The translations under genes were made by a program, and so were the position numbers. 64,000 bases of DNA from Bryopsis sp. KO-2023 (lineage: Eukaryota > Chlorophyta > Ulvophyceae > Bryopsidales > Bryopsidaceae): assembly GCA_030272585.1 (NCBI GenBank), contig BSYQ01000005.1, positions 2,542,001 through 2,606,000 of the forward strand, given 5' to 3'. Numbering within the stretch: the stretch's first letter is position 1; each line of letters begins with the position of its first letter. Under the pieces are notes generated by a model. The model was not told the DNA's origin, ran no database searches, and worked only from the letters and a program-made list of their open reading frames with translations. Positions 24,573 through 59,232 of the stretch are shown piece after piece.

Positions 24573-24899
24573 TGTTGGACCGGGTAGAACACAAGTACTG
24601 AAAGACAGACATAAGAGCGTCACATCAACAAATCCACACAACGGACACTCATTTCTAATGAAAGTACTACCACACGATTTGACTCTGAGAGCGATGTCAA
24701 ATGTGTTGAATCGACTGGTCAGTGCGGGTGAGAGGCCCCATGGCAGTGGGGGTTTTACGTTAGAAGTACGAGGTATGAGTCAGTGGAGGAAGTGTGAGAG
24801 TTGAGTGAGTCGGGAAGGAACGTCTGTGAACGGGAGTTCGGGGTTGTCTTTTTGTTGTAAGACTTTTTTTGCGGAAGGCTCGTTCTTCCAGTAACAACA
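24573..24899 (+). repeat. 5' LTR
   Basis: 327 bp, identical to the 3' LTR except for one base at 24821. Its last base A is also the first base of the gag-pol ATG, so LTR, primer-binding site and coding start overlap. Confidence 0.95.
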
Positions 24900-27800
24900 T
24901 GGTTTCGGAGCGAACAGGGTGGATCCTGGCCTTTGGGGGCTTGGCTCTACTAGCCGGTATGTCGCTGCTGTTACAGCGACCACCGACGATATCAGATCAA
25001 AATGCGGCGCCGGCAACACCAGCCGGAAGGGCGCCAGCAACGTATCCCCCATCACCTCCTCCATTCTCTACGCCTCACACGCCCAGAACGTCTCCACACG
25101 AGCTCTGGCAGAGGCTGATGTGGTCGATCAGACATCGACACTCACAACGTGCCCTACCCTCCCCTTCACCGAACCCCGCTGCTGCGTGGGACACCCTGGA
25201 GCTGGTGCAGCTTGCAGACAGGATGCACAAGCTCTGGGGTGTCCTGCGGGGATCCAACGCCAACCTGGTCGGAGCAGGGATCGCCTCCTCGCTTCTGCTG
25301 GGGTACCTACTGAAGTTCCTCGACAAAGGTTCTGCATGGTTACGGCGGCGTAGAACAGAGACGGCGATGAGAAGGGAAGTCCTGGAGCTCGGGAGTGCGG
25401 CGCCTGCGGCTTCAGTTTCGACGGAGGGGTCAGCTACGTTGGACAGACTTCGGCGGCTGCAACAAACGGAGGAGGAGACAGAGTTGGAGTTTTTGCAGCG
25501 GTTTTTCCTGATGTTCTTAAACACGGGACAAGCGGCGGAGGTGGAAGAAGAGAAAAAAGCGGTCAAGCTACTCGTGGCCCGGTTACCGGGGAGGGTGTTG
25601 AGCCGCGTCGTGTTGGAAACAGAGTTCGAAAAACTTACCTTCAGCGGACTTCGGGAGCTTTTGGATCGAATGAAGAGGAGGACGGAATACAGGGAATCAG
25701 TTCTCGCGGAAGTAAAGAAGGAGGAGGAGGGAAAGGAAGAAGTGAAAGTGGATGCTAAAGCAGAACCTAAGGTGGGGACGAAAGTTTTGGTGGCGGACAG
25801 GCCACCTACTCGGACGGGAGAGATTCCGTACTGCCAGTTTTGCGGGCGGAAGGGGCACTGGGAAGCGCAGTGCCGGACGAAGAGGAGAGCGCAGGTGGCG
25901 AGTGTGGAAGAGGATGCTTTCGGCGAGCTGCTGGAGGCAATACAGCAAGAGCAGCCGTCGTCGTCGTGCCATTCGGTCGCAGCAGGAACGCCCGCCGGAG
26001 ATACGGTGCGAAAACAACTTCGGGTGAAACTCAGGCTGGAAGGAGAACAGGGAGGGAGTAACCACCTTTTCGAAGCGTTGGTCGACAGCGGAAGTGGATG
26101 CTCCATCATGCCATGGAAGGTATGTCAAAGGAACGGATGGGGAGTCGCTCCTCCGAAAGGAGTGCTAACGCTGACCGGGTTCAATGGAAGCAAGGAGAGC
26201 GTGCGAGGGACGGTGACGCTCGACGTCAAAGTAGGACCGTGGGAGGGGAAGGAAGTATTTTTGGTTTCGGAAAACACACCCCAGATTATTCTGGGCGTCC
26301 CCCTCCTCGCACACCTTTCCCTCACCGTCGACTGCGCTCGCAACTGCCTCTGGGGCAAGAACGGAACGTCCATCCCTTGCCACGCAGTCATGAAGGTAGG
26401 GGAGAAGTCGGGAGAGTTAGAGCGGGGTGTGGTTCGAGTGCTGCAAGACCCCCTCACGAAAAAAGGACGCAGGATTCGTTTAGTGGGAAAGGATGGGGAG
26501 TTTCGGTTACCCCTGGGTTCGTCGTTGGTTCTGGGACCCTACGCGATTAAAACGGTTGTTCTTCCTTTTCGAATTACTGGGCCTGGCCTGTTTTCGTTAA
26601 TGGCCATAGGACAACCCCACAACCTCCTTCACTCTGTGACGACGAACTCCGACGGAAGAGTTCGACTCACGCTGTATAACGCCCAGTTGGAGGCTAGGAT
26701 GCTTACTGCAAAACTGTGTTTGGTTAGCTTCAGGGTGGCTGAGGGAACGCCGGTGGTGATAGAGGAAGGAGGAGCAGAGGAGGAATGTGTCGAACAGGAG
26801 GAGGATGGTTTACTGCCCCATGGTTTGGATCTCAGAGAGAAGGAGGAAGTGGAACCTGAGGAGGAGGGGTGTTTTGGGATTGAAAAGAAGGGAGATGGAG
26901 GATGTCAAACAGTTTCTTTTCCACCACAGGAAGTGGAATCTGAGGAGGGGGGGTGTTCTGGAATAGAAAAACAGGGAGATGGAGGATGTAAAAAGGTTTC
27001 TTTTCCACCACCAAAGAATGACTGTGGGTCACTGGAAGTGTTTGACAGAACCAGTGGTTCGAAGGGCAGTTGGGGCACAATGCAGTCGAATCAGGACTGT
27101 GTTTCACAAACAGGCCAGCTTGCATCTGTTGGACAGCAGTTGAGCCCAGAGGGGGACAGTAGAGTACTATCGAATTCTGCCCAAAACAGGGGTATACCGA
27201 CCATCAGTTCTGACTCTGGCGAACAGCATCTCAGTTCAGGGGATGGGTGTGTGTTACGGAGTTTAACAACACAGAACAGTGAGGCTGTAGCTACTGAGAA
27301 TCCAACAAACAGTGCAACACTGAGGAAGAGCCAGAGCACAGCCTCTCTCACAGAACTGGATGTGAGTTCTGCTACGCACTATCCACTCAGGGACAGGATT
27401 GAGGGGAAGGACTCTGAGAATGAGGGGAGAACACAGACATCAAACACAGACTTTGAATGTCAGCCCAATAGCTCTAATGCTACTGGACAGTTCATCAGTT
27501 CAGATAGGGAGAAGGGAGAAAAGAATTTTGGCTTACACACCAGCAGTTCAGAGGCTGTACATCACTTACCCAAGTCAGATACTCAGGGAAGGGTACAGCA
27601 GTCGAAATTCCACACACCGGAGGAGAATGTAGCTTCTGAGAGTCCTGCAAACAGTGCTACACTGGGGACAAGCCAGGGTACATTCTCCACCCCCCAGCAG
27701 GATCAATGGAGGGACTTACCAAGGGGGAGAGAGGGACGGACATGTGGGGAAGACCAAGGCACCCAGAGTGTCCTCACACCTAACAGCCTGACTGCACACA

Positions 27801-30800
27801 GCACTCTGCTGCAAGAAAGCAAAGCTGTAGCTACTGAGAGTCCTACAGACAGGGAAACATTGGGACAGAGCCAGAGTACAGTTCAGAGTTCACAAAAGGA
27901 AACAGGGGGCTGCTTACCCAGGGGGGGGGTAGTCGGGGCAGTGGAACAAACACACAATGAGGGACAGACTGTAACTACTGAGAGTCCCACTAACAGTGAC
28001 ATACTGGGGAAAAACCAGAGTTCAGTCTCTCACCTTCAAGAGGAAAAATTACTCTGCTCACCCAGGGGGGGGGTAGGGGGGACAGTGGAACAGGAGCACC
28101 TTGATCTCTGGAAGTACTGGGAAGCCCTCAGAGGGAAACCACCAGGCAGAAGTTTTAGCGAACACACTACATCCCCTTTCTCTCACCTGACGACGATTTG
28201 GGAGGAGGTGGCTGACGACCTTCTCGACAACACCACAGCAGTAGGGACAGGGGAAAGACTCTGGAACGGACATACTGCTACGGTGCAAACCACTCAGGAA
28301 CAACCTGCAGGCACGACGGAAACGCCGTCAGCGATGGAGGACAAAAGCTCAGTGGAATACTGGCGACGCGAATTTCCGAATGTGATTTGTGACGACCTTA
28401 GCAGAGACGACAAGGCAACTACTGCCCCTCTTCGGGTTTGCCACAGGGAGGTGAAATGGCGCATACCTTTTCACAGAATTCCGCTGCACAACACGGGGAT
28501 CCGGTATTACGCCACTGACGTCGCGCCTAAGGAGATTCGGAAACTGCTTACCTCGTTGCAGGGGCAAGGCGTCATTCGTCCACTGGGCGTCGGCGAGCGG
28601 GCTCTGTTCTCCCCCGTACTTTTCCTAAGGAAGCCGAATGGAAAGGTCCGTAAGACGGTGGATTTTCGTCTGCTGAACTCGTACTCCGACGCCTGGAAGA
28701 CGTCCCTGCTCCACGTTCGGGACGTGCTGAAGTCGATTCCACCGGAGTGGGATTACTTTACCGTCCTGGACCTGGAGCAGGGCTTCTTCCAGGTGGACGT
28801 TTGCGATTCGCTCCAGCCCCTCTTCGCGTTTGAAACCGGAGAGGGGGATTACACTTACCTCCGCCTCCCACAGGGATGGAACTGCTCGCCGGGGTTGTTT
28901 CACTCACGCATCAGGAGCTCGATCCACGGATACCCCGGTCGTAACTTCGTCGACGACCTCATAATCGGCGGAGAAGGCGTCGAAGGCCATGACAGGAACC
29001 TGCGACGTGTTCTGACCAGGCTCGACGAAATGGGATTACGGATAAACAGGGAAAAGGCGGTCGTCAGACAAAAGGAGGTTACCTACTTGGGGTACACGGT
29101 CACGAAGGGGAGCTACGGCCTTCGACGCTACGTCGACGACCAAGTGCGTCAGTTGCCAGAAATGCGCGACGTCAGGGACGTCCGTCAATTCGTCGGCATG
29201 CTTAATGTCTGCAGGGGAGTTTGCCCGAATTTCCATAACATCATTCAACCTCTGCTGGAGCTTCCCAAGGGATCGAATCCGAAACTCATGCAACAGTTGG
29301 TGGCAGAAGCATGGAAATCCATACTGACTAATAATGTCAAGTTGGGTAATTCAGATTCTGGAGAGTATAATCTGTTTACAGACTGGTCATCCTCTGGGTG
29401 GGGGTATGTTCTGTTCAGAGGTACCCCCTCAGAGGGGTGTATCGTCAGCCTCAACAGTCGAAAGTGTGCGGATAAGGGAGGAGAAAAAGTCAGCTCCTAT
29501 TTGGGGGAGCTTCAAGCTCTAATATGGGCATTGAAATCGGTTTCACAGGTGGTGGCTGGGGGTCAGCTAACCCTGCACACTGATTCGAACTCAGCAGTGC
29601 AAAGGATTACGAAGTTAGCACCGAAAGAAGTCGTGGAGGACATCAGAGTGGTGCGTCTCTTGGCTTGGTTGGCAGAGAACTACCCCTCCCCTGGAAGGTT
29701 GAGGGTTCAATTCCTGCCAGGGACATCTAACCCTTGGGCTGATCTCCTGTCTAGATGGTACAGCAGGCCAACACAAACACAAGGGCAGGTGTGTGCACTT
29801 GAACCACAAGAGATGCCAATCAGTAAAAACACAAGCATGGAATCAGGAGGATCCAACAGATCAACAGAACAGGTGCTGGAGCAGGCTGAGGCAGTGGACT
29901 CTAAAGAGAGTGATTCAGGAAGGTCTGGCATGTCAGGAAACACAGAGTTGGGACATGCATATACAGGAGGCTCAAGAGGAGAGGAGTTGGGCAAGATAGC
30001 GGAAGGGAAAGAGCTGAGCAGAGATCAGCTGGAACGGTTGCACAAGGAGGGACACTGGAGCCCACAAAAATTGCTATGGCTGTGTGCACAACATGGATGG
30101 AAGGCTAATAGAGGAGATCTGGAGGAAATTCAGAGGTACTGCCAGACCTGCCAGAGGGTAGCCCCTAAGAAGGAAAAAGAACTTCTTAGGGGAGCTGGGC
30201 ATCTAACCCACCCTGGTCAAACAGTGGGCATGGACATCATCGGTCCACTACCCTCTGGTAGGTGTGGCCACAATCATATAGTAGTGGTGGTGGACCACCT
30301 CTCTCGTGATTCGATGGTTTGGAAGACAAAGGAGGTGAAGGGGAAACAGGTCAGAGAGTGTTTAGGTGAGTGGATAGCGACTCATGGATCTCCAGACAAC
30401 CTATTATGTGATGGAGCTGCCTACTTCCATTCGAAGGACATGAGAGCATGGTACAAAGACAACCACATTCAGGTTTGGAGGACACCCCCTTATCACCACA
30501 GAGCGAATGGAGTGGTGGAGAGGAGGAACAGAGCTCTGATTTCTAAAATCAGAGTACTGTTGTTGGATCATGGAGGGTATTGGGATGATTGGCTGCAGAA
30601 GGCCAACTGGATGGTCTGCAACATGGTGAATAGAACCACTGGATGGCCACCATGTAAAGTGTGGACACTATCAAGCAAGGAGTGGGATAGAATTCAACAG
30701 AGATTGAAGGAGAGCAGAGATAAGGTGAATGCACAGAAAAAATTGTCTGACTGGAATCATTTTCTGGGAGAGGAGGTCCTTTTATATGATTCAGCAAGGG

Positions 30801-30967
30801 CTGAAAAAAAGGATCAGAAATTCAGTGCAAGTTGGAAGGGACCATATAAAATAGTGGAACTGATTTCCCCCAGTCGAGTCAGGATTGAGGAAATCAATGG
30901 CAAACTCAGGAGGGGTAGGAAACCCTTCCTAGAAGTGCACAAATCACAGATCAGGCACTTCTTCTGA
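24899..30967 (+). CDS. Gag-Pol polyprotein of Ty3/gypsy element
   Basis: A single intact frame of 2022 residues without frameshift. In order: an N-terminal part with two hydrophobic stretches (about 9-31 and 122-141) and a charged capsid-like region; a CCHC zinc knuckle (C312, C315, H320, C325); an aspartic protease with DSGSG at 396; a long low-complexity region (about 617-1140); reverse transcriptase with LPQG and FVDD (1350-1353); RNase H with D1495 and E1537; integrase with an HHCC finger (HKEGH, CQTC) and catalytic D1779, D1838, E1874 (35 residues between the last two); and a GPY motif near 1978. The intact frame and near-identical LTRs suggest a potentially active copy. No separate gag is seen, so the Gag:Pol ratio may depend on processing or translation control. 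Confidence 0.93.
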   Translation: MVSERTGWILAFGGLALLAGMSLLLQRPPTISDQNAAPATPAGRAPATYPPSPPPFSTPHTPRTSPHELWQRLMWSIRHRHSQRALPSPSPNPAAAWDTLELVQLADRMHKLWGVLRGSNANLVGAGIASSLLLGYLLKFLDKGSAWLRRRRTETAMRREVLELGSAAPAASVSTEGSATLDRLRRLQQTEEETELEFLQRFFLMFLNTGQAAEVEEEKKAVKLLVARLPGRVLSRVVLETEFEKLTFSGLRELLDRMKRRTEYRESVLAEVKKEEEGKEEVKVDAKAEPKVGTKVLVADRPPTRTGEIPYCQFCGRKGHWEAQCRTKRRAQVASVEEDAFGELLEAIQQEQPSSSCHSVAAGTPAGDTVRKQLRVKLRLEGEQGGSNHLFEALVDSGSGCSIMPWKVCQRNGWGVAPPKGVLTLTGFNGSKESVRGTVTLDVKVGPWEGKEVFLVSENTPQIILGVPLLAHLSLTVDCARNCLWGKNGTSIPCHAVMKVGEKSGELERGVVRVLQDPLTKKGRRIRLVGKDGEFRLPLGSSLVLGPYAIKTVVLPFRITGPGLFSLMAIGQPHNLLHSVTTNSDGRVRLTLYNAQLEARMLTAKLCLVSFRVAEGTPVVIEEGGAEEECVEQEEDGLLPHGLDLREKEEVEPEEEGCFGIEKKGDGGCQTVSFPPQEVESEEGGCSGIEKQGDGGCKKVSFPPPKNDCGSLEVFDRTSGSKGSWGTMQSNQDCVSQTGQLASVGQQLSPEGDSRVLSNSAQNRGIPTISSDSGEQHLSSGDGCVLRSLTTQNSEAVATENPTNSATLRKSQSTASLTELDVSSATHYPLRDRIEGKDSENEGRTQTSNTDFECQPNSSNATGQFISSDREKGEKNFGLHTSSSEAVHHLPKSDTQGRVQQSKFHTPEENVASESPANSATLGTSQGTFSTPQQDQWRDLPRGREGRTCGEDQGTQSVLTPNSLTAHSTLLQESKAVATESPTDRETLGQSQSTVQSSQKETGGCLPRGGVVGAVEQTHNEGQTVTTESPTNSDILGKNQSSVSHLQEEKLLCSPRGGVGGTVEQEHLDLWKYWEALRGKPPGRSFSEHTTSPFSHLTTIWEEVADDLLDNTTAVGTGERLWNGHTATVQTTQEQPAGTTETPSAMEDKSSVEYWRREFPNVICDDLSRDDKATTAPLRVCHREVKWRIPFHRIPLHNTGIRYYATDVAPKEIRKLLTSLQGQGVIRPLGVGERALFSPVLFLRKPNGKVRKTVDFRLLNSYSDAWKTSLLHVRDVLKSIPPEWDYFTVLDLEQGFFQVDVCDSLQPLFAFETGEGDYTYLRLPQGWNCSPGLFHSRIRSSIHGYPGRNFVDDLIIGGEGVEGHDRNLRRVLTRLDEMGLRINREKAVVRQKEVTYLGYTVTKGSYGLRRYVDDQVRQLPEMRDVRDVRQFVGMLNVCRGVCPNFHNIIQPLLELPKGSNPKLMQQLVAEAWKSILTNNVKLGNSDSGEYNLFTDWSSSGWGYVLFRGTPSEGCIVSLNSRKCADKGGEKVSSYLGELQALIWALKSVSQVVAGGQLTLHTDSNSAVQRITKLAPKEVVEDIRVVRLLAWLAENYPSPGRLRVQFLPGTSNPWADLLSRWYSRPTQTQGQVCALEPQEMPISKNTSMESGGSNRSTEQVLEQAEAVDSKESDSGRSGMSGNTELGHAYTGGSRGEELGKIAEGKELSRDQLERLHKEGHWSPQKLLWLCAQHGWKANRGDLEEIQRYCQTCQRVAPKKEKELLRGAGHLTHPGQTVGMDIIGPLPSGRCGHNHIVVVVDHLSRDSMVWKTKEVKGKQVRECLGEWIATHGSPDNLLCDGAAYFHSKDMRAWYKDNHIQVWRTPPYHHRANGVVERRNRALISKIRVLLLDHGGYWDDWLQKANWMVCNMVNRTTGWPPCKVWTLSSKEWDRIQQRLKESRDKVNAQKKLSDWNHFLGEEVLLYDSARAEKKDQKFSASWKGPYKIVELISPSRVRIEEINGKLRRGRKPFLEVHKSQIRHFF
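24900..24918 (+). promoter_or_regulatory. candidate primer-binding site
   Basis: Directly after the 5' LTR the sequence reads TGGTTTCGGAGCG. Its first twelve bases differ at two positions from the TGGTATCAGAGC complementary to plant initiator tRNA-Met. Position and TGG start fit a primer-binding site; the tRNA identity is inferred. It lies inside the first codons of gag-pol. Confidence 0.55.
26846..27013 (+). repeat. two tandem 84-bp coding repeats in the gag-pol spacer
   Basis: Units at 26846-26929 and 26930-27013 encode near-identical 28-residue blocks (EVE-EEGC-GIEK-GDGGC-VSFPP). They lie between protease and RT of the retrotransposon. Downstream, four looser copies of a TESPTNSATLG-like block occur near 27284, 27631, 27826 and 27969. 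Confidence 0.8.
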
Positions 30968-48839: not shown

Positions 48840-51800
48840 TCAATAAGAAACCAACTGAACCAAACGCTGGGTGCGAGAAATCGACTTCCTCACCCGTTGC
48901 ACCGCCGAAACACAGTAATTGTGTTTGTTTTCTTTCGACTGGAGCTGAGACATGAACCTGCATTTCAGCGAGCACCCCGAACGCTGAATCCATCGATACA
49001 GCCCGCTGTCTTCGTTCCTCCCACACTTGAAGCTCTCTGTGGGCTCCTTGCGGTTCGCCGACGCCCTCCGTATGACCGACCTGATCTCCGACTTGCTCTG
49101 CAGCCCGAACGCCGCCTCGATGACGTCTTCTCTGACGTCTTTCAAGCGCTCGTTGTATTCCTCCGTGCCTTCCGGCAGATCTTTTTGGAACCAGGGGCAT
49201 TGGATGATTTCGTCGACTGTGGGACGTTGCTGAGGGTCGGCATTGAGAATCCATGAAAGAAAGTTCGTGCAGTCTGGGGAGAGGTTCGTTTTCGACTCGG
49301 TGCGCTTCAGATGTTCAGGGGTTCTCAACATTCCTGGTTTGCCAATGGACGGAAATTGTCCGAATAACATGTAGTAGAGACACACCCCACAGCAGAAGAC
49401 GTCTCTTTTCTGAAGAAAAAAAAACATGAAAAAGGAGCTGAAAACGAGATGTAAAAAACGCTGTGCGAAGTTTTACAGATTCCATACATTTCCTTCATAA
49501 ACGGTACGATACTTTCTTATTCAGCAAGGAGTTTTCGCGTGTGTCACCATTGTCATTTCGAATTTTTTACTTTTTTTTAATTATTAATTTTCACGATTGT
49601 ATCCATTTTGTTCTTCTTCATATTTTTTCTTAATGAAAATTAAAACATGATCGGTTCTCAGTTCACTATATTTTTAGTTCTTTTTGACCGTGATAAAAAG
49701 AAATGGTGTTCAATGATTTCACCATAAACTAAACAAAAAACAACCATTTAAACAGAAAGAAAATGCGAAGAGGGGCCGAAACAGAGTCTGTTTGAGTAAG
49801 GTTTTCCATTTTTTTCAATTCTGACCTTGGTGTCGATAGGTTTGGGGTAACCTGGCTCAATCTCGGGTGGAGAATATGGATTCTTTGCGGAAAAAGCAGG
49901 AGGCGAATCGAACGCTCCCTGGAAATTTTCATAAGAAATCCAAAGTGTTGGAAAAGAAAGCAACAAAATAAAAAACGATGACAACAAAAATGGAATAAAT
50001 AATTTAATCGATAGAAAAATAATCTGAGTCTGTATTAGTGCACAGGATATCATCAAAAAGTCGATAGAAATAATTTACAGTTTTATTTTCTTGCTAACAA
50101 ATACATAAAAAATATTTTTGCATAATTACAACACGTATTATTTTTTGGGGTGTTTTTTGGGGGCGGAAAGAAAAAAATTAAAAAATTAAAATTAAAAAAC
50201 TGGAAACTGGGAAATTTCAAGTCGAGACATTTTCCTGTAGGATATACAGAGGAGGAAAAAAATATATATCCAAATTTATTCGATCGGCAGCATATTTTTT
50301 TACCTTGAGGTTCATATCACAAAGGGATATCATCTGTTGATTGCCGTTCAAAACCAGTTTGTCCAATCTGATGGCATTCATCGTTACGTCCTGCGGTCGA
50401 AAAAAGAAAAGAAATGAAATCAAAAATTGTGGGAAAGAGACACAGCTTTTGATGTGGCCATCACTCTCTTCTCACTTATGCCCCCCCCCCCCCCCCCAAG
50501 CAATTTTTAAATAAATAATAATAATACAAATATTAGACCATACAAATTTATAAAAAAATATAAAAAAATATAAAAAATTGTGAAGTCTAATAACTTATTT
50601 GCCCTTCAGGAATGGTGCATACCTCTCTCCTTCTCACCATATTTTATATTTTTCAAAAAAAAAAAACAAATTAAAACACCTGCCTGTGTTATTTGTCATT
50701 TATTTTTGGGGGTGTAGATTCTAGTGGTAGTGACCTCTTTTTGGTGTGTTTTTTCCCCACCCCACCCTCTTTCTGTTATTTCCGCATTGATTTTTTAATA
50801 CCCGATGCTGGTTGTATGCGACAGCAATAATCAGCTGTTGGAAAAACCTTCTTGCCCAATCTTCATTCAAATACCTATGTTGAGTAACAAAGTCTAACAG
50901 AGTCCCCCCCGGTGCATATCCCATCACAATGCACAGAGCATCTGGGCTCAAGAAGACCTGCACTAGGGAAGAAGGAAAAAAAAAATACAATTATGAAAAT
51001 TATGATGAACACATTGTACGGATTTTATAATTTTCATTAGTTATGTGTGGGTATCAGAAAACACAATGAGCGACATCTACATCAGGAATTGTTGATGGGT
51101 TATTTTTTATTTTTGAGGGGGGGGACACTTTTGGGTTTGAAGTTTTACATTCAGATGTAGAGGTATTCGTTTATTTTGCTTTTATTTTTTATTTTTTTTC
51201 TTCATTTATTTTTTTTTTTTTGGGGGGGGGATACTTCACAATGTAAATGAAAGGCTCAATTAAAGACAACAGTGAAAGGCATGGGGTATTTTTCCTTGTT
51301 GCTGTAATGTGGGTACCAGCCATCAGTCTGTCGAAAAAAGAAAAAAAAGAAAAAAAAGAAAAGAAAACAAGCGCACCTCATGGAATCTGATGATATGGTG
51401 ATGAAACAAAGCACGGCGGCTCAAAATTTCTCTCTGGATGTAGTCCAAGTTCTGCAGTGCACCATCCCAAGAAAGGATATTAAAAAAAACCCAAAAAAAC
51501 CTTGTTTCATACTTACGGAATGTTCAAAAAACAAAAGGAGAGCTAAAGCGAATCTAAGAAAGCACATATTCCAAAATTGGAATATTACTATTAAATCCTA
51601 GAAAACTGTACATTACTACTGGTTGGAAATGTGGTCTGTGACATAGACATTTTCTTCCCCCCCCCCTTCCCTCATCCCTCTTCCTCAATTTCGTTCGATG
51701 ACTAAAAAAAGGGTGAACTCAATCGCGTGCCGAAGAACGCCAGCATCCCCTCATTCATTCACTTCGCAACGGATATGGGTGATTTCAATTCCGGCGCAGG

Positions 51801-52423
51801 CGATCGAATCAGATCACTGTGCTTACTGTCTCGCTCTTCCTCTCAATGAATCGAATTGCCACAAGCTTCTTGTCCTTCCTGTCGTAAGCCATTTTCACAC
51901 GTCCATATCTGCCGAAAGCCCTGACCTGCAGAAACAATCGACCCACTTCACGTAAACTTCACCCTGTTCCTCTCCACGAACCAATCTGTGGATCTCCAGC
52001 CAGCCCACTTCAGACCATCCACCGCCTGAGCATCCGTGATCACAGTGACAGAACATGAACATCGGATGGCCAAGGGGCGAACCAGAGAAACCACGAGTAC
52101 GCACAGTGGGTGAGGATGAAGCGCTGGTAAGTTTCGATCACACACAAGGTTGTGTGGCCACGGGACCTCAACTCAACTCGACGGAGCCCCCGCAGCCAAA
52201 ACCACACGACTTTTCTTTGAAAACTTCGGGGGGGGGGGAGGAGGGAACACGCTCCACGTGAATGGCATGTCGCTCCAAAGCGTTATGCACCGAACTACGG
52301 AGCTCGAACACCAGCCACAATTCGACGGACAGAAGAGCAACACCGCCGTTTATATCTCATACGCACCACATGGTAGCGCCCGTCCTTCCCGATGTCGCTC
52401 GGTGCGTGCGAGAACTCGTCCAT
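48840..52423 (-). CDS. SnRK2-like pseudokinase
   Basis: Seven exons: 52367-52423, 51827-51925, 51377-51451, 50802-50957, 50304-50390, 49826-49918, 48840-49409, 378 residues, every junction phase 0. The line-up follows plant SnRK2 kinases closely: GRYHV at the domain start, QREILSRRALFHHHIIRF for helix C, VFLSPDALCIVMGYAPGGTL, EDWARRFFQQLI, RDVFCCGVCLYYMLFGQFP and PEIIQ-like PTVDEIIQCPWF. The catalytic machinery is degenerate: the Gly loop is shortened (AFGRYGRV), the ATP lysine is Arg44, HRDxKxxN reads H128-R-D-V-T-M-N-A, and DFG is DMN (154-156). Glu60 of helix C and an activation-segment SPPE remain. It is probably a catalytically dead scaffold or allosteric partner, though HRD Asp130 survives. 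The tail beyond residue 300 is basic. Confidence 0.84.
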
Positions 52424-53422
52424 GGGGGGAACAAGAGAACCTCAGTAGGGGGATGTCAAGAGCCCGTATTTGTGTGGATGTAACCGCGCAGAGGTCATGC
52501 TCAGGGATCACATGATGTGATCCTTCCCCGAAACTACAGTGTAGCCCGAGGGAACACGGGGTGCTCGTTGGGGGAAGCTTCGATTTTGGAGTTTTGGATC
52601 TTCTGATTGAACGTGCTGGTGAAACAAGTCGGAAGTTCTTGTAACTCGACGTCAGTTCTTGACTTGGCGTTCTCTTCTTCGTCCAATGGACGTCGATAGT
52701 CCCCATCAACACTGCACACAGTCCATTGGCTTTTCCTTTCTGTATATCACATGAACATGTTTGTTTGTTTCGTTGCTGATTGTGGGTCAATCTCCGTTCC
52801 GCTTCGGCAATCCAAGCCACCAGAGGTGAAATCCCTGGGAAAGGTTGGGAAAGTTCACAGTCGCTCAACAATGAAATTCTTGCGGTGAGATGCACCATCC
52901 GCGCGCAGTTTTCGTTCGCAGAAGCGAAAAGCCAGCCCAGCCCAGTTCGCCACTCTTTCAAATTTAAATCGATGTACCAAGCGATTGATATCAGCGTCTT
53001 CCTGGTGCTTGGGAACAGGGTGCGATGCACTGGGAAGACTGCCCTTTGCGCATACCGCTCACAAAAACGCGCAACCAACGCAGACGCGTCGTCTTTCCAG
53101 ATGGCGAGAAATAGAGCCGGCCATGACATGGATACACCCCACCACTCGACACACAAAACCGCAGATGCAACACCACGAAACGAAATGAGGTGATAAACAA
53201 TCAGGGGTGCCGCTCGAGACGAACGGCCGGGACATGGCAGCTCAAGCCAGAACGCTGAATTGGGTGTGGAGGGCCACAACGGGTCGAGGATCCGACGGCG
53301 CCTGGCGTCTTGGCATCTCATGTGTGGCGGTGTTGTTGGGCGCATGGCTCACACAAAATGCACGTGGTGTGATAAAGTAGTCACCACGTTCCACTCCTGG
53401 GAATTCGCTGTTTCCTTGCGGA
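52424..53422. promoter_or_regulatory. 1-kb divergent region with a long unexplained open frame
   Basis: Separates the start of the pseudokinase (minus) from that of the LysM-PLA2 gene (plus). A minus-strand frame is open from 53345 to 52350 (about 330 codons) and overlaps the pseudokinase first exon in another frame. A second minus frame (52534-52719) is acidic and protein-like. No family was recognised for either and they have no phase-matched partners. Promoter function is inferred from layout. Confidence 0.4.
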
Positions 53423-55813
53423 ATGGATCGCCTCGTGGCCCTCGTCGTTGTGGTGCTCGGCCATATCTGTTATAGTGCAGGTAGATATGCTGGAGGGTCC
53501 AGCTCGAACGCTCGAAACAGTTAATTCGCACCAGACTTTGGCAGCGCCGAACTCCTTCGAAGCAGAAAGGATAAAAAAAAGGGAATGCCTCAAGTGGGAA
53601 CGTACTTCTGCTTTACGATTTTTGCTTGTTTTCTTTGCAGCGTTGCCTGACCTCTGCCGCTGTGGGAGTGTCGGAATACCCAGTGGTGGTTTTGAGAGCG
53701 TCTCCGAGGTGACGAGCTTGATTTACCCCGGAACTAGTGGACACCATCGCGAAAATGTCGAGGAGGCGTTGTTGCTGTGCAACCCTGACCTCGGCTCCAC
53801 AGGAAGCTTAGAGCGGACGCATGTGGTCCTCCCCTGTTTGTTTCCCGAGGACGAACATTTTCGACCAAAATTTGAGGGTGGGTGGATGTGGCATTGGTGT
53901 GGTCCGAGACTACTAGGAGTTTAGTACGAAATTTTGAGGGGTTCTCAGGAAGGGGGTGCCTTGCATTACTTGTGTGTGTGTCTGCTGACAAAACAGCGAG
54001 AAGTTGCTGAACAGGGAATGAGGGCACAATCGTCCATAACCTAGACTGGCTGATAAATCCCCAGCATGAAGAAAACTGATAATTGAGAAACTCGCTGCCT
54101 GCATGACAGTTGATCACTGTCTTTGACTGGTTTTGTTTTGAGTGGAGAATTGCCGGTGGGCTGCCAGATTATGCCCACAGTTGTGGCTGTGATAGGACCC
54201 ACAGAGTTGCAGATGGACAAACGCTGTGGAGCATCGCCTCGGAAGCCTATCCCAGAGAGGATGCCATGGTGGCAGCCCATTTGATCATGGGGTGCAATCC
54301 TAGCATGAACCCCAACGCCCTCGTGGAAGGCCAAAACCTTCAAATGTATTGCTTTGATGGCCTTCTCGGATTGAAAGAAGCACAGCAAAGGGAAGCTTAC
54401 ACAGGTAGATGGCCGAATGGCCCGGGGGAACTGCTGAACATAATGTGGATTTATGTTTGCATGGTAATATTGCTCGATTCATGGCATGCACGTGGAATTA
54501 TGGGATGCTGGACTTAATCTGAAGCAATTTGGAGGAGAAGGATAGAGTTAGAGACGGATGGCAGAATTCTCGAGCTTCTTTGCAAAGAACATGCCAGTTT
54601 GGTTTGGCATGCAATATTGGGGGGATCATTCGGGCGACCAAAACGGTCAATTGGCTGACTTTGCTTCTATATTTCAGGGCGCGTCCTTCTCGCCGAGAAA
54701 TCGAAGCACAAGGATATCTACGTCAAAGAAGGGTGCCCCACTTGCGACGTCGCTCCTTTCGCGAAGAAAAAAAGGGGCGAAATCGCCGACAAATCGCTTC
54801 ATGAGTGCGGCTGCGACGACAAGTGCGCCGACTGCGCGGTTAATTTCGTCAACGGATGCACGAGCACTTTCGGCGCCAGGTTTGAGGGCGCTTTCGAAGA
54901 CACGGTTCGGCCCGCTTGTTTCATGCACGACGCTTGTTATTCGTGCGGCGACGTCGTGTTCAAGAAAGCGATCAAGAGTCGGGACGGGCGCAGGAAGAAG
55001 TGTGACGACCTTATGCGGGAAAAAATGTACGACAGATGCGACCAAATTTACGAAGATCAATCGAGGTTGAGGTCGTCATGTCGATTCGCAGCCTCGACGT
55101 ACCACAAAGCCGCACGGTGCGCAGAACTTGATACGTTACTGGACATGAACGGGGCTCTTTTTTCTGGCACCAGGATTCAGCATCTCTGTGAAAATGTGCC
55201 GCAAGGTTTTGTTGATATTGCTGCAACTGCAGAACAAATTCAAAAAATATTAATGAAAATGATCAACTTGGTGTAGCCCTGTTGCAAAAATGAAACCGCC
55301 ATTCATAATCAGCAACAAAAACAGCCGAACAAGCTCTGTTTTGACTGAAATAGTTTTGCACACCAAGACTGGAGATGCAAAAACACCCCTGCAAAGGTTT
55401 TTAGTATGACCTGCAGTGCCCAAAAAAGAAAGAAAGACTGAAGAGAGGCAGTACATATCACTTTCTTAAAAAAAAAAACCCAGAGAAAACCTTTTTTTTT
55501 GCAATATTAAGGTTTCATTTTGTTGCTTTCCTGGCTGTGTCACCACAGATTGCTCGGAGGCAGCTTCTTCAGGAAAAAGTGCAAGTGCCCCAAAGGATGG
55601 ACCCCCTATGTGAACAATCTATACCAGATGGATTTCTGTGTGCAGCCTGTCAGGGAAGGCTTCCGGCTGCCCAAACAAAGCATCACAGAGGCCGCGAAAA
55701 ACGCGGGAAAACAGCCAAAAAAGAAAAAAAATGGAAAAAAGCAGGAGGATGAAGAGGAGGATGATGGTCTGTTTGCCTCCATCAAGAAAAAAGCAGGAGA
55801 CCTCGTGGGATGA
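53423..55813 (+). CDS. secreted protein with two LysM-like modules and a phospholipase A2-like domain
   Basis: Five exons: 53423-53480, 53641-53881, 54148-54404, 54678-55116, 55549-55813, 419 residues. A signal peptide (residues 1-19) precedes two modules of similar shape, one per exon: CRCG-VSEVTSLIYP-CNPDL-VLPC, and CGCD-HRVADGQTLWSIA-CNPSMNPNALVEGQNL-MYC, the second a clear LysM. LysM binds chitin, peptidoglycan and related glycans. Next is a Cys-rich domain with C266-x2-H269-D270-x-C272-Y-x-C275, the active-site signature of secreted phospholipase A2 of the conodipine-like type. The C-terminus is Lys-rich with an acidic cluster (QEDEEEDD). The weakest join is exon 2 to 3: a stronger donor at 53877 breaks frame, so 53881 was used. 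An alternative is two adjacent genes, but phases across exons 3-5 argue for one. Confidence 0.75.
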
Positions 55814-57032
55814 AATCTCGGTCAGCCGTGTGGCTTCCGGTTTGTTTGCTCTTCGACCAGAGGAGTCGTTTTTGAGTTTTTGTTGTATTTTTCTGCACAA
55901 AATCAGTGGTAGATTTCTTATATTTGATCTTGACTTGTAGCATCATTGAGGGTTGGGGTTGGGATGAAGGTGGACTTGATAGGAAGGGACCTACCTCAAA
56001 GTTCTAAAAATTGGATTGTTTCAAGCAGAAAAGGTTCCCAGAAAGAAATTTGGTGCCTGACTGGAAGCAAGCCTAGTCTGTCAACCTAAAAACTCGTTTT
56101 TGCGATGTGATCAATCGCTGGAATAACAACAGCTGTGGCTGTTTTTTTGTTTTTTGTTTTTTGTTTTCCGGGACGAAGATGGGGGCTGGGGGAGGGGGCA
56201 GTGGCTGTGTAATGAGATTTTTTTTGTAGCAGTGTTACAATGGACACAGAAAAGAAAATGTCGGCTCTTTACACAGCATGATTTGGGTCGGTACAAACAT
56301 GTCTGTAAACAAAACTTAATTGGTCGATCAGCCAGCTGTTTATTCACTGGACCAGGTTGAGCTTCTTGTGTGGAAAATGTGTGCACTACATGCTTTCTTT
56401 GAAAAAGAATCATTTTCGTTTCCATCAACTGATCAACATATAAGCTGCTCGATCAATGATTAGTTGCAAGATGTCGTTGTGTTGATTGAGGGTCGGACCC
56501 CTACTTATCAATCAATCAATATTACATCAATATTACCCCTACTCATCAACAGAACAGTGTGTTGTAATCGATGCAGTCGCCACTCATTCCTGGCCCTGGC
56601 TCCTGCAGTAACTCATCAAAGCAATCAATCAGTGGGGAAAATGAATGGGTCCTTCATACCAGATGTTTTTCTTTCCCCAACACTCTGCAGCACAATCGGG
56701 GTCGTCGTCAGTACGGAATCGAAACGATCATTGAACGCACGACACGACGCACTGGAGGAAAAGCGCCTCACCACCGCCAGTTCCATTGATTGGGGTGGGC
56801 TCTGGAAAATGAATGATATGACCTTGACTGGCGCGCCTTTCACACAGTTATCGAGAATCACCTCCACTGGCGCCCGTCCCCTAGAAAAGGCCAACGACTG
56901 CACCTATTCGTTCATCCACCGAGCGCATTGGAAACGACCCCCCCCCGTGGTGTGCGAGAGAGGCAGAAAGAGCATCCGTTTTGACGACTCGAGCGACCGA
57001 CAGCGTTGGAACCGAAAAAAAAACCCACAGAA
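55814..57032. other. intergenic, no gene supported
   Basis: About 1.2 kb. A plus-strand frame from an ATG at 56641 runs 131 codons and its stop overlaps the next gene's ATG (57033-57036), which looks like chance in a genome of this kind. A minus-strand frame of similar length (56625-56903) also lacks motifs. Probably 3' UTR plus promoter. Confidence 0.45.
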
Positions 57033-57842
57033 ATGAACATGAAGGCGGCGTTGTGCATTGCTGTGGTTCTTTTTGCGCTTGTCGCATCTGTCCAGGGTGA
57101 GCGCGACACCTCACCTTTAGGCTTTTCTTTGCTAAATTGCAAGTTTGAACCTCCAGCGAATCGTGTTTAAGGCTTCCGGGGGGGTTGCTCGGTATTACCG
57201 AGTTAAAACTCCTTTCTGCAATTATAGAACGGGTGTTTCGATCATATGCCGGCTGAGACGATGGCGGCGATCCAGCAGTGTTTAGTTTATTATGGTTTGA
57301 AGCTGATGAGTTGGGTGTGTTACGGTTTCAGTGGAAGGCAAGGCTGTCGTTGCCCCGCCCCCGCCCACCAAGAAGGTCGTCCATGTGCCGGTACGTTTCC
57401 CCTCGATCATATTTATCTAATAGATAGCTTGTTTGTTATAGATAAACAACAAACGTTTCTTCCAACGTTGGAACTGCCTGGCTGCGACGGTCTATTGTGA
57501 AGCGTTTTCGTTAACAAATGTACCGCGAAGGCATATTTGACACTCCAGCAATTTCGCTCTTGGATAGATTTTTTTTCCTGTTGCATTGAGCGCTGGGGGC
57601 AACCCCACATGCACCTGGCATCTTCGCATGTAACCATGTTTGTTTGTTTTATTGCTTGTTTGCAGGTGGTGGCAGCCGGGAAGAAGTCTAAGCTCGTGAA
57701 ATTGCCCCCACCCTCTCCTCCCCCAGAGCCTGAGGCCAAGCCTGCGTCCAAGCCTGCTGCCAGAACGCCCAGGCACCCGTTGCTGGCTCTTAAGATGAAG
57801 AAGTTTGGCTTGGCCAGGAATGCCTTGACCGCGGGCAAGTAG
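57033..57842 (+). CDS. small secreted Pro/Lys-rich protein
   Basis: Three exons: 57033-57096, 57332-57390, 57666-57842, 99 residues, phases 1 and 0. A signal peptide (MNMKAALCIAVVLFALVASVQG) is followed by Pro-rich and basic sequence: APPPPTKK, then LPPPSPPPEPEAKPASKPAA, ending in a basic, partly amphipathic tail (LKMKKFGLARNALTAGK). No cysteine in the mature part and no named domain. Composition resembles cell-wall or matrix Pro-rich peptides; an antimicrobial-like cationic tail is another reading. It sits in a row of secretory genes. Signal peptide and phase-matched exons make the gene credible; function is unknown. Confidence 0.68.
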
Positions 57843-59232
57843 AAAAAAAACAACAGATGTCCGATCTGTTTTGGCTGCAGGATAAGGAAAATTTGAATAA
57901 GAAATTGGCCTTTGTGTTTCGGAGGTTTCGATGCATTTTGGTCGTTTCGCATGGCAGAAAGCAAATTTATCGGGGAAAAAAAATATAATGGGGGGAAGCT
58001 GTGGTGCTAGATATCTATTATATTATCTATAATATATGTGCTGCTGAAAATTCATGAATTTAGAGCTGTGTGGGAAAGAGAACTCTTTCTGCATGGGTAT
58101 ATGAGTAGTACGTTTTCTGGTGTGGCGTTTTCGCTTGGTTTTTCTTTTCGGCTGAAATTTCGTCGTGTTTATAAAGCGATGCGGAATTGGAGGCATTTTT
58201 TTTGTACTTTTGACAGAAAATATGGAGCATATAAAAGAAAGAACATGTATAGTCCTCGTTGATTATCGCTGACTATTATTATTGTAACAGAATGACCGGC
58301 TGTCGTTTAAAAATTCATCAGTGCACTTGGAGTGCAGTGCATGTGGAGGGTATTTAATATGGTGTGAAGCATCATACAGCCATATGTTTTTTTTTTCAAA
58401 ACATACTAATGTTTTTTCAATCATTCTAATACCTTGGGACCACTGCGGCAACGAAAGTTGGAAGCTTTGTATCAACTTGATGGTCGAATTTTTGTCAGGG
58501 GTTCAATACACTCCCAAAGCGGGTTGCATTTGGTACAAAACAGCCCTTTCAACTGTTATCACTGGCCTTACCACGAACCCTATGGTGGACATCTGAAATG
58601 CCAACACCACACTCAAAATCGTTTCCAAAACGATTCCATGACCTGCCTGCTACAGCCCCCACACTCCTTGCACCAACGGTGCCAAATCCCTGCTCATGAA
58701 CATTCAGTAAAACGTCCAGCCCGAAACCGCAGCTCGTGGAACCGTCCGTGCAGCCGCCCTTTACCCAGCATGGTTGTGATGAAAACGTTTTTACAAACAA
58801 CTCTCAACCATAAGTTGTCCATCGAACTCATGACGACCCAGGACGACCTTCGTAAGCTCAGCGCCACACATTTCTCACTTCCATTTCCCTCCGCCCATAA
58901 AATATCATTTTCACGCATTAGTACTCACACAAAATCGTCAATTCTTGTACAGGAGGGTTTCTCTTTCTGCTGCCCGAAATTAGACCACCTTGGAGCATCA
59001 CCTCTCAAGCCAGGCGAGTCGCAAGTTGCGTTGCTCGAGCTGGAAGGGCCGAACCAAGCAGGAATATTTCGCTGTGGAAAATCCGCACGGCGCTCCTAGG
59101 TTGTTTCTCGTCGCGTTCTGGCAGATCTCGACCTGCAGGGAAATCAAAAACATAAAGGAAAAAAAAAGGGGGGCCCAGAAAGGAACCAGAAAAAGAGGGG
59201 AGATCTCGTGAGGAGGATAAAGAATCAATAAT
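57843..59232. other. spacer with a possible decayed copy of the Ala/Cys-rich gene
   Basis: No intact gene. On the minus strand 58549-58800 reads as Gly/Val/Cys-rich sequence with C-DG-x4-CGF spacing, faintly like exon 4 of the Ala/Cys-rich gene (CDGQGFGCGF). A 221-codon plus-strand frame (58434-59099) opposite it has no motif. The left part is AT-rich. Confidence 0.3.

Follow-up and report, generated by a model that had tools for sequence, protein, structure and literature searches.

Can LysM modules and a phospholipase A2 (PLA2) domain belong to one secreted protein, and to what use would an alga put the combination? The question is raised by a locus within 64,000 nucleotides of the Bryopsis sp. 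KO-2023 genome (91.09 Mb in 28 contigs); this whole stretch is called the window. An earlier note, made from the letters alone, had described the locus as a single gene in which two LysM modules precede a PLA2-like signature. The reading preferred here, with a probability of about 0.5, is that the gene encodes a secreted, disulfide-rich PLA2 that a LysM-type module would aim against microbes. The gene and its paralog are laid out as follows.

53423-55813, + strand: whole gene, five exons encoding 411 residues; ATG at 53423, stop codon ending at 55813
53423-53480, + strand: exon 1, with the start codon and a hydrophobic N-terminus that resembles a signal (residues 1-19)
53641-53877, + strand: exon 2, 237 nt, phase 1-1; module 1, with CxC...CNP...C
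54168-54404, + strand: exon 3, 237 nt, phase 1-1; a divergent LysM (module 2) that has CxC and CNP...C
54678-55116, + strand: exon 4, Cys-rich linker (CPTC...CxC...CADC) and PLA2 core
55549-55813, + strand: exon 5, end of the PLA2 domain, CxCP-x-GW...C segment, and Lys-rich tail ending GLFASIKKKAGDLVG, then stop
C12 391921-394937, - strand: paralog, six exons encoding 399 residues, with its parts in the order of the window gene

All four introns are bounded by GT...AG, and the five spliced exons form a single open frame that starts and stops exactly where the earlier note had placed the gene. Introns 1, 2, and 3 are phase 1 throughout. One concern had been that the exon 2-3 join might shift the LysM frame; with the donor at 53878 and the acceptor at 54168, the join is in phase and the two exons are equal in length and phase. 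Many alternative in-frame donor/acceptor pairs exist for this join, and this pair was chosen because both exons then are symmetric, a feature shared with the paralog. Read-through of intron 4, in which the frame continues to 55276, was considered and rejected: once this intron is spliced out, the protein again aligns with the paralog, and the PLA2 matches go on into exon 5.

The paralog emerged from a genome search with the PLA2 part, which found three pieces on contig C12 (E 1.4e-20, 1.0e-10, and a weak 0.065); a module 2 query matched one more C12 piece just upstream of these. The two proteins are 39.9% identical over 366 aligned positions (E 2e-101). The first three intron phases are common to both genes, exon 1 of the paralog (55 nt) likewise ends in phase 1, and the later introns differ. 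Across 390 codons, the copies differ at 169 first, 146 second, and 245 third positions, a third-position bias that is the pattern of coding sequence. Every post-signal cysteine is conserved (24/24), as expected for an extracellular protein. The best conserved part is the PLA2 core (51/100 identities); the linker has 22/47, module 1 30/78, module 2 29/78, and the two C-terminal parts 11/31 and 12/37. The signal region retains hydrophobic character alone (3/19), which is what signal peptides usually keep. The sole other place found in the genome, on contig C13, was not significant (E 0.8, with three stops) and was dismissed as a third copy.

The predicted protein almost certainly begins with a signal-like N-terminus, continues with two Cys-rich modules and then a PLA2 domain, and ends in a Lys-rich tail. 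The single open frame, the GT...AG introns, and a paralog with the identical order of parts bear out the original claim of one gene. The note had also called the protein secreted: the hydrophobic signal-like N-terminus is there, and from it we infer export. In the tail, a GL-x-x-x-I-K stretch is partly conserved. An amphipathic or antimicrobial C-terminal helix was considered and rejected, the hydrophobic moment being reached by 22% and 60% of 10,000 shuffles.

The PLA2 assignment centers on four short elements of exon 4:

54851-54862, + strand: N-G-C-T codons, corresponding to the DxC[ST] loop motif, with Asn here in place of Asp
Residues 258-265, + strand: C-x2-H-D-x-C-Y signature, His codon at 54926-54928
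54926-54931, + strand: codons of the His-Asp pair, by alignment with structures 4aup and 8k1w and with the bacterial sequence L020
55004-55009, + strand: Asp-Asp codons, the first of which (55004-55006) is the second catalytic Asp position

The His-Asp pair and the second Asp are kept in alignments with Phospholip_A2_3 (PF09056), the family of prokaryotic and fungal secreted enzymes that includes the group XIII structures 4aup and 8k1w; we take these to be the catalytic positions, as in the known family, and the DxC[ST] loop presumably has a calcium role. Pfam named no family for the whole 411-residue protein (neither LysM nor PLA2) or for its 234-residue PLA2 half. Trimmed domains scored 24.7 bits (E 3.6e-5) for the window gene and 27.9 bits (E 3.9e-6) for the paralog against PF09056, both just under its curated cut-off of 29.4 bits. 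The closest solved structure is the group XIII PLA2 4aup (E 5.5e-5 when both genes form the query profile, 9.6e-4 with the window gene alone). An hhalign comparison with 24 bacterial PLA2 sequences gave 97.8% and a score of 74.6, against 19.2 for the best of 100 shuffles. The C-x2-H-D-x-C-Y signature pointed out in the earlier note lies in a domain that is PF09056-like in profile comparison.

These 24 sequences comprise L020, an actinobacterial relative that was the one relative from 51 pattern matches in scanned genome contigs, and 23 of 25 PF09056 loci; the other two (L053 and L054) lack the pattern used and were dropped. A search of 396 genomes from a single bacterial phylum yielded the 25 loci, which are spread over 24 of the genomes. 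A parallel scan of viral contigs gave no relatives among 49 pattern matches. The PF09056 search of the Bryopsis genome gave no match although two gene copies exist, and it was insensitive here because it missed both.

Besides the C-x2-H-D signature, the algal domain has the second Asp, the xxRxxG end, and a distal Cys in common with PF09056, and its C[ST] loop can be aligned both with 4aup and with the bacterial profile. The algal domain differs in scoring below the Pfam cut-off, in its many extra cysteines, and in standing behind LysM-type modules. Two conserved Cys-rich stretches beside the PLA2 core are without family match: CPTC...CxC...CADC at 54734-54835 (residues 197-230) and CxCPxGW...C at 55580-55639 (residues 335-354). 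The net charge of the PLA2 part is +10 in the window gene and 0 in the paralog.

A further comparison is with the Tox-PLA2 domain of bacterial polymorphic toxins, a PLA2 with the fold of PDB 1kp4 that serves as a toxin domain and whose motifs are given in a survey as a DxC[ST] loop and CxxHxxxYxN (PMC3482391). The loop reads N-G-C-T in the window gene and D-G-C-S in the paralog; CxxHxxxY is kept, and the Asn that follows Y is replaced by Cys in both copies. These toxins are bacterial, whereas the algal gene has introns and keeps the DxC[ST] and YxN motifs in part. The predicted product is likely to be an active secreted lipase; our estimate was set lower because the loop Asp is Asn in the window copy.

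The modules present a less uniform picture. Module 2 scores 16.5 bits (E 0.0081) against the Pfam LysM family (PF01476), and its counterpart in the paralog 14.7 bits, both below the cut-off of 20.9 bits. At E up to 10, Pfam LysM was listed for two of the four modules of both copies, and there was a weak match to NFP LysM2 (PF23457; E 0.09). By hhalign, the two-gene profile of module 2 aligned with a LysM profile over 44 columns at 96%, with a score of 41.9, whereas none of 100 column shuffles scored above 18.1. The LysM profile held 15 sequences: seven of the eight LysM matches in the Bryopsis genome (a short one on contig C10 was left out), and eight segments from five PDB alignments. With a homemade LysM HMM, scores for the two proteins were weak (E 0.016 and 0.044), and a PDB search with a profile of all four modules found no LysM structure. 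Module 2 resembles LysM over these 44 columns, and differs from it in its sub-cut-off score and in a longer stretch before CNP.

Module 1 is barely recognizable as LysM. Against the same profile, its hhalign result (2.3%, score 13.9) lies inside the range of 100 shuffles. Its comparison with the module 2 profile gave a score of 22.8 with a probability of only 35%; this score was reached by none of 150 shuffles and by none of 150 Cys-preserving shuffles. Module 1 probably is a duplicated, diverged copy of module 2, a reading that draws on their equal exon length and phase, the common CxC...CNP...C pattern, and the resemblance to module 2. On these comparisons, the pair is one divergent LysM and one degenerate relative, rather than two LysM modules. 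Of the two LysM modules claimed earlier, therefore, module 2 stands by profile comparison and module 1 does not. Of the kinds of domain search that had been proposed, Pfam gives matches below its cut-offs for both module 2 and the PLA2 domain, and profile-profile comparison gives matches to both beyond the shuffles. Because each module sits on a short symmetric exon, exon duplication and shuffling are suggested as the origin of the protein.

LysM and PLA2 each are known, and their combination was not found in the accessible portions of the open-licence literature searched, in keeping with the claim that no LysM-PLA2 protein has been described. None appears in the parts of PMC3482391 and PMC11077975 that could be seen. 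The same portions of the polymorphic-toxin survey list LysM among the adhesion domains of toxins and mention Tox-PLA2 homologs in fungi and oomycetes, and they name no LysM-PLA2 pair (PMC3482391). Nothing pairing Bryopsis with LysM was found in the open-licence literature. Six-frame translations (at least 60 residues) of the 25 bacterial PF09056 loci and L020 gave no LysM with the homemade HMM, a weak test given loci of about 3 kb (8 kb for L020) and a crude model. By description only, we take the algal C-x2-H-D-x-C-Y to resemble the conodipine-like (group IX) PLA2 pattern. Conodipine is a two-chain venom protein that is not known to carry LysM. Two conodipine papers do not mention LysM (PMC11811501, PMC6635587).

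LysM joined to hydrolases is a theme of the Bryopsis genome, exemplified at two further loci:

L001 991-2355 (contig C6): GH19 chitinase, then four LysM modules
L002 1210-1764 (contig C11): end of a trypsin-like protease, then one LysM

What might the window protein do? The sequence itself shows the gene structure, the second copy, a LysM-type module, and a PLA2 domain in which most catalytic positions are kept; that the protein is exported, which sugar it binds, whether it is active as an enzyme, and what it acts on and to what end are inferred along the following lines. After export, module 2 would bind a GlcNAc-containing polymer (peptidoglycan or chitin) on a microbe, and the degenerate module 1 would help or flank it in binding. 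Docking would hold the PLA2 domain close to the microbe's membrane, whose phospholipids it would hydrolyze by means of calcium and the His-Asp pair. The most likely use would be to fend off or control microbes, whether at wounds or within the cell, in an alga that is without a membrane barrier when wounded and that houses bacteria.

Microbial defense or control is favored on the basis of the LysM-hydrolase theme, the wall requirement of a human PLA2, and the bacteria of Bryopsis. Human bactericidal PLA2 must penetrate the wall, for which it needs high positive charge, and loss of the GlcNAc side chain in group A streptococci delays this penetration (PMC6201954). By analogy, a LysM tag could meet the same need that charge meets in the human enzyme. 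Bryopsis cytoplasm holds bacteria (PMC3196581), and another study suggests that Bryopsis selects bacteria after wounding by intrinsic mechanisms (PMC3252328). Against an antimicrobial reading, the PLA2 charge of 0 in the paralog contrasts with the human enzyme's reliance on positive charge. Antimicrobial use by itself is, on balance, given slightly less than even odds. If it is correct, the protein would be a lipase carrying an address tag for GlcNAc polymers, unlike the human bactericidal PLA2 with its high positive charge, and it would offer a concrete candidate for what selects the bacteria within Bryopsis after wounding, a process so far without explanation.

A bolder version of the antimicrobial reading, which we hold to be quite improbable, is that the siphonous alga uses a LysM-guided PLA2 to sort bacteria entering the cytoplasm in its brief "life without a membrane." LysM would dock those whose peptidoglycan is exposed, and their membranes would then be cut; wall-less or shielded bacteria would survive as residents.

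Three other readings of the protein are each doubtful. It may act on the alga's own material, binding GlcNAc-bearing glycans at wounds or on extruded clumps of organelles and remodeling lipids during the re-formation of protoplasts, in partnership with the H-type lectins of the alga. H-type lectin matches occur at 12 places in the genome, nine of them on contig C4. Lectins of B. plumosa are reported to act in wound healing during protoplast regeneration, and one of these, BPL3, is GlcNAc/GalNAc-specific and described as similar to H-type lectins (PMC5793061). Lipid cutting seems at odds with the rebuilding of membranes, which counts against this role.

Alternatively, the protein may be a secreted weapon or digestive enzyme directed at chitin-walled eukaryotes (fungi, oomycete-like parasites, or grazers) and not at bacteria. 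Eukaryotic LysM modules often bind chitin oligomers, and the genome also encodes the GH19 chitinase with four LysM modules; the window modules are too divergent for a ligand preference to be read from them. It is similarly unlikely that the N-terminal modules no longer bind sugar and act, within a secreted PLA2, as protein-binding parts or as spacers rich in disulfides. Module 1, not recognizable as LysM, and module 2, with its sub-cut-off Pfam score, would suit such a role, which is difficult to square with a LysM-like profile kept over 44 columns in paralogs that are 40% identical. Finally, that two neighboring genes, or a frame artifact, were joined by eye at one of the many in-frame splice choices of the exon 2-3 join is very improbable, because the C12 paralog shares the order of parts, the first three intron phases, 40% identity, and the cysteines, and the PLA2 alignment continues across the exon 4-5 join.

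Several other features of the genome were observed. Chlorophyll a/b-binding proteins gave 107 matches, with exon pieces counted separately. A 91,672-base contig, 30.7% G+C in its first 10 kb, encodes what we take to be a plant-type RbcL. Another contig of 356,152 bases (55.7% G+C in its first 10 kb) has matches to bacterial-type 16S and 5S rRNA, and probably is the mitochondrion.

Within the window, an Rfam search of 52000-58000 gave no match. Just downstream of the PLA2 gene, at 57037-57842 on the + strand, is a small, secreted-looking Pro/Lys-rich gene with about three exons by eye; its last exon matched only itself in the genome. An LTR-type retrotransposon occupies 24830-30964 on the + strand, with an open frame of 2045 residues that matches reverse transcriptase, RNase H, and integrase, and protease weakly. 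An open frame at 48843-49472 on the - strand matches protein kinase (E 9.5e-10).
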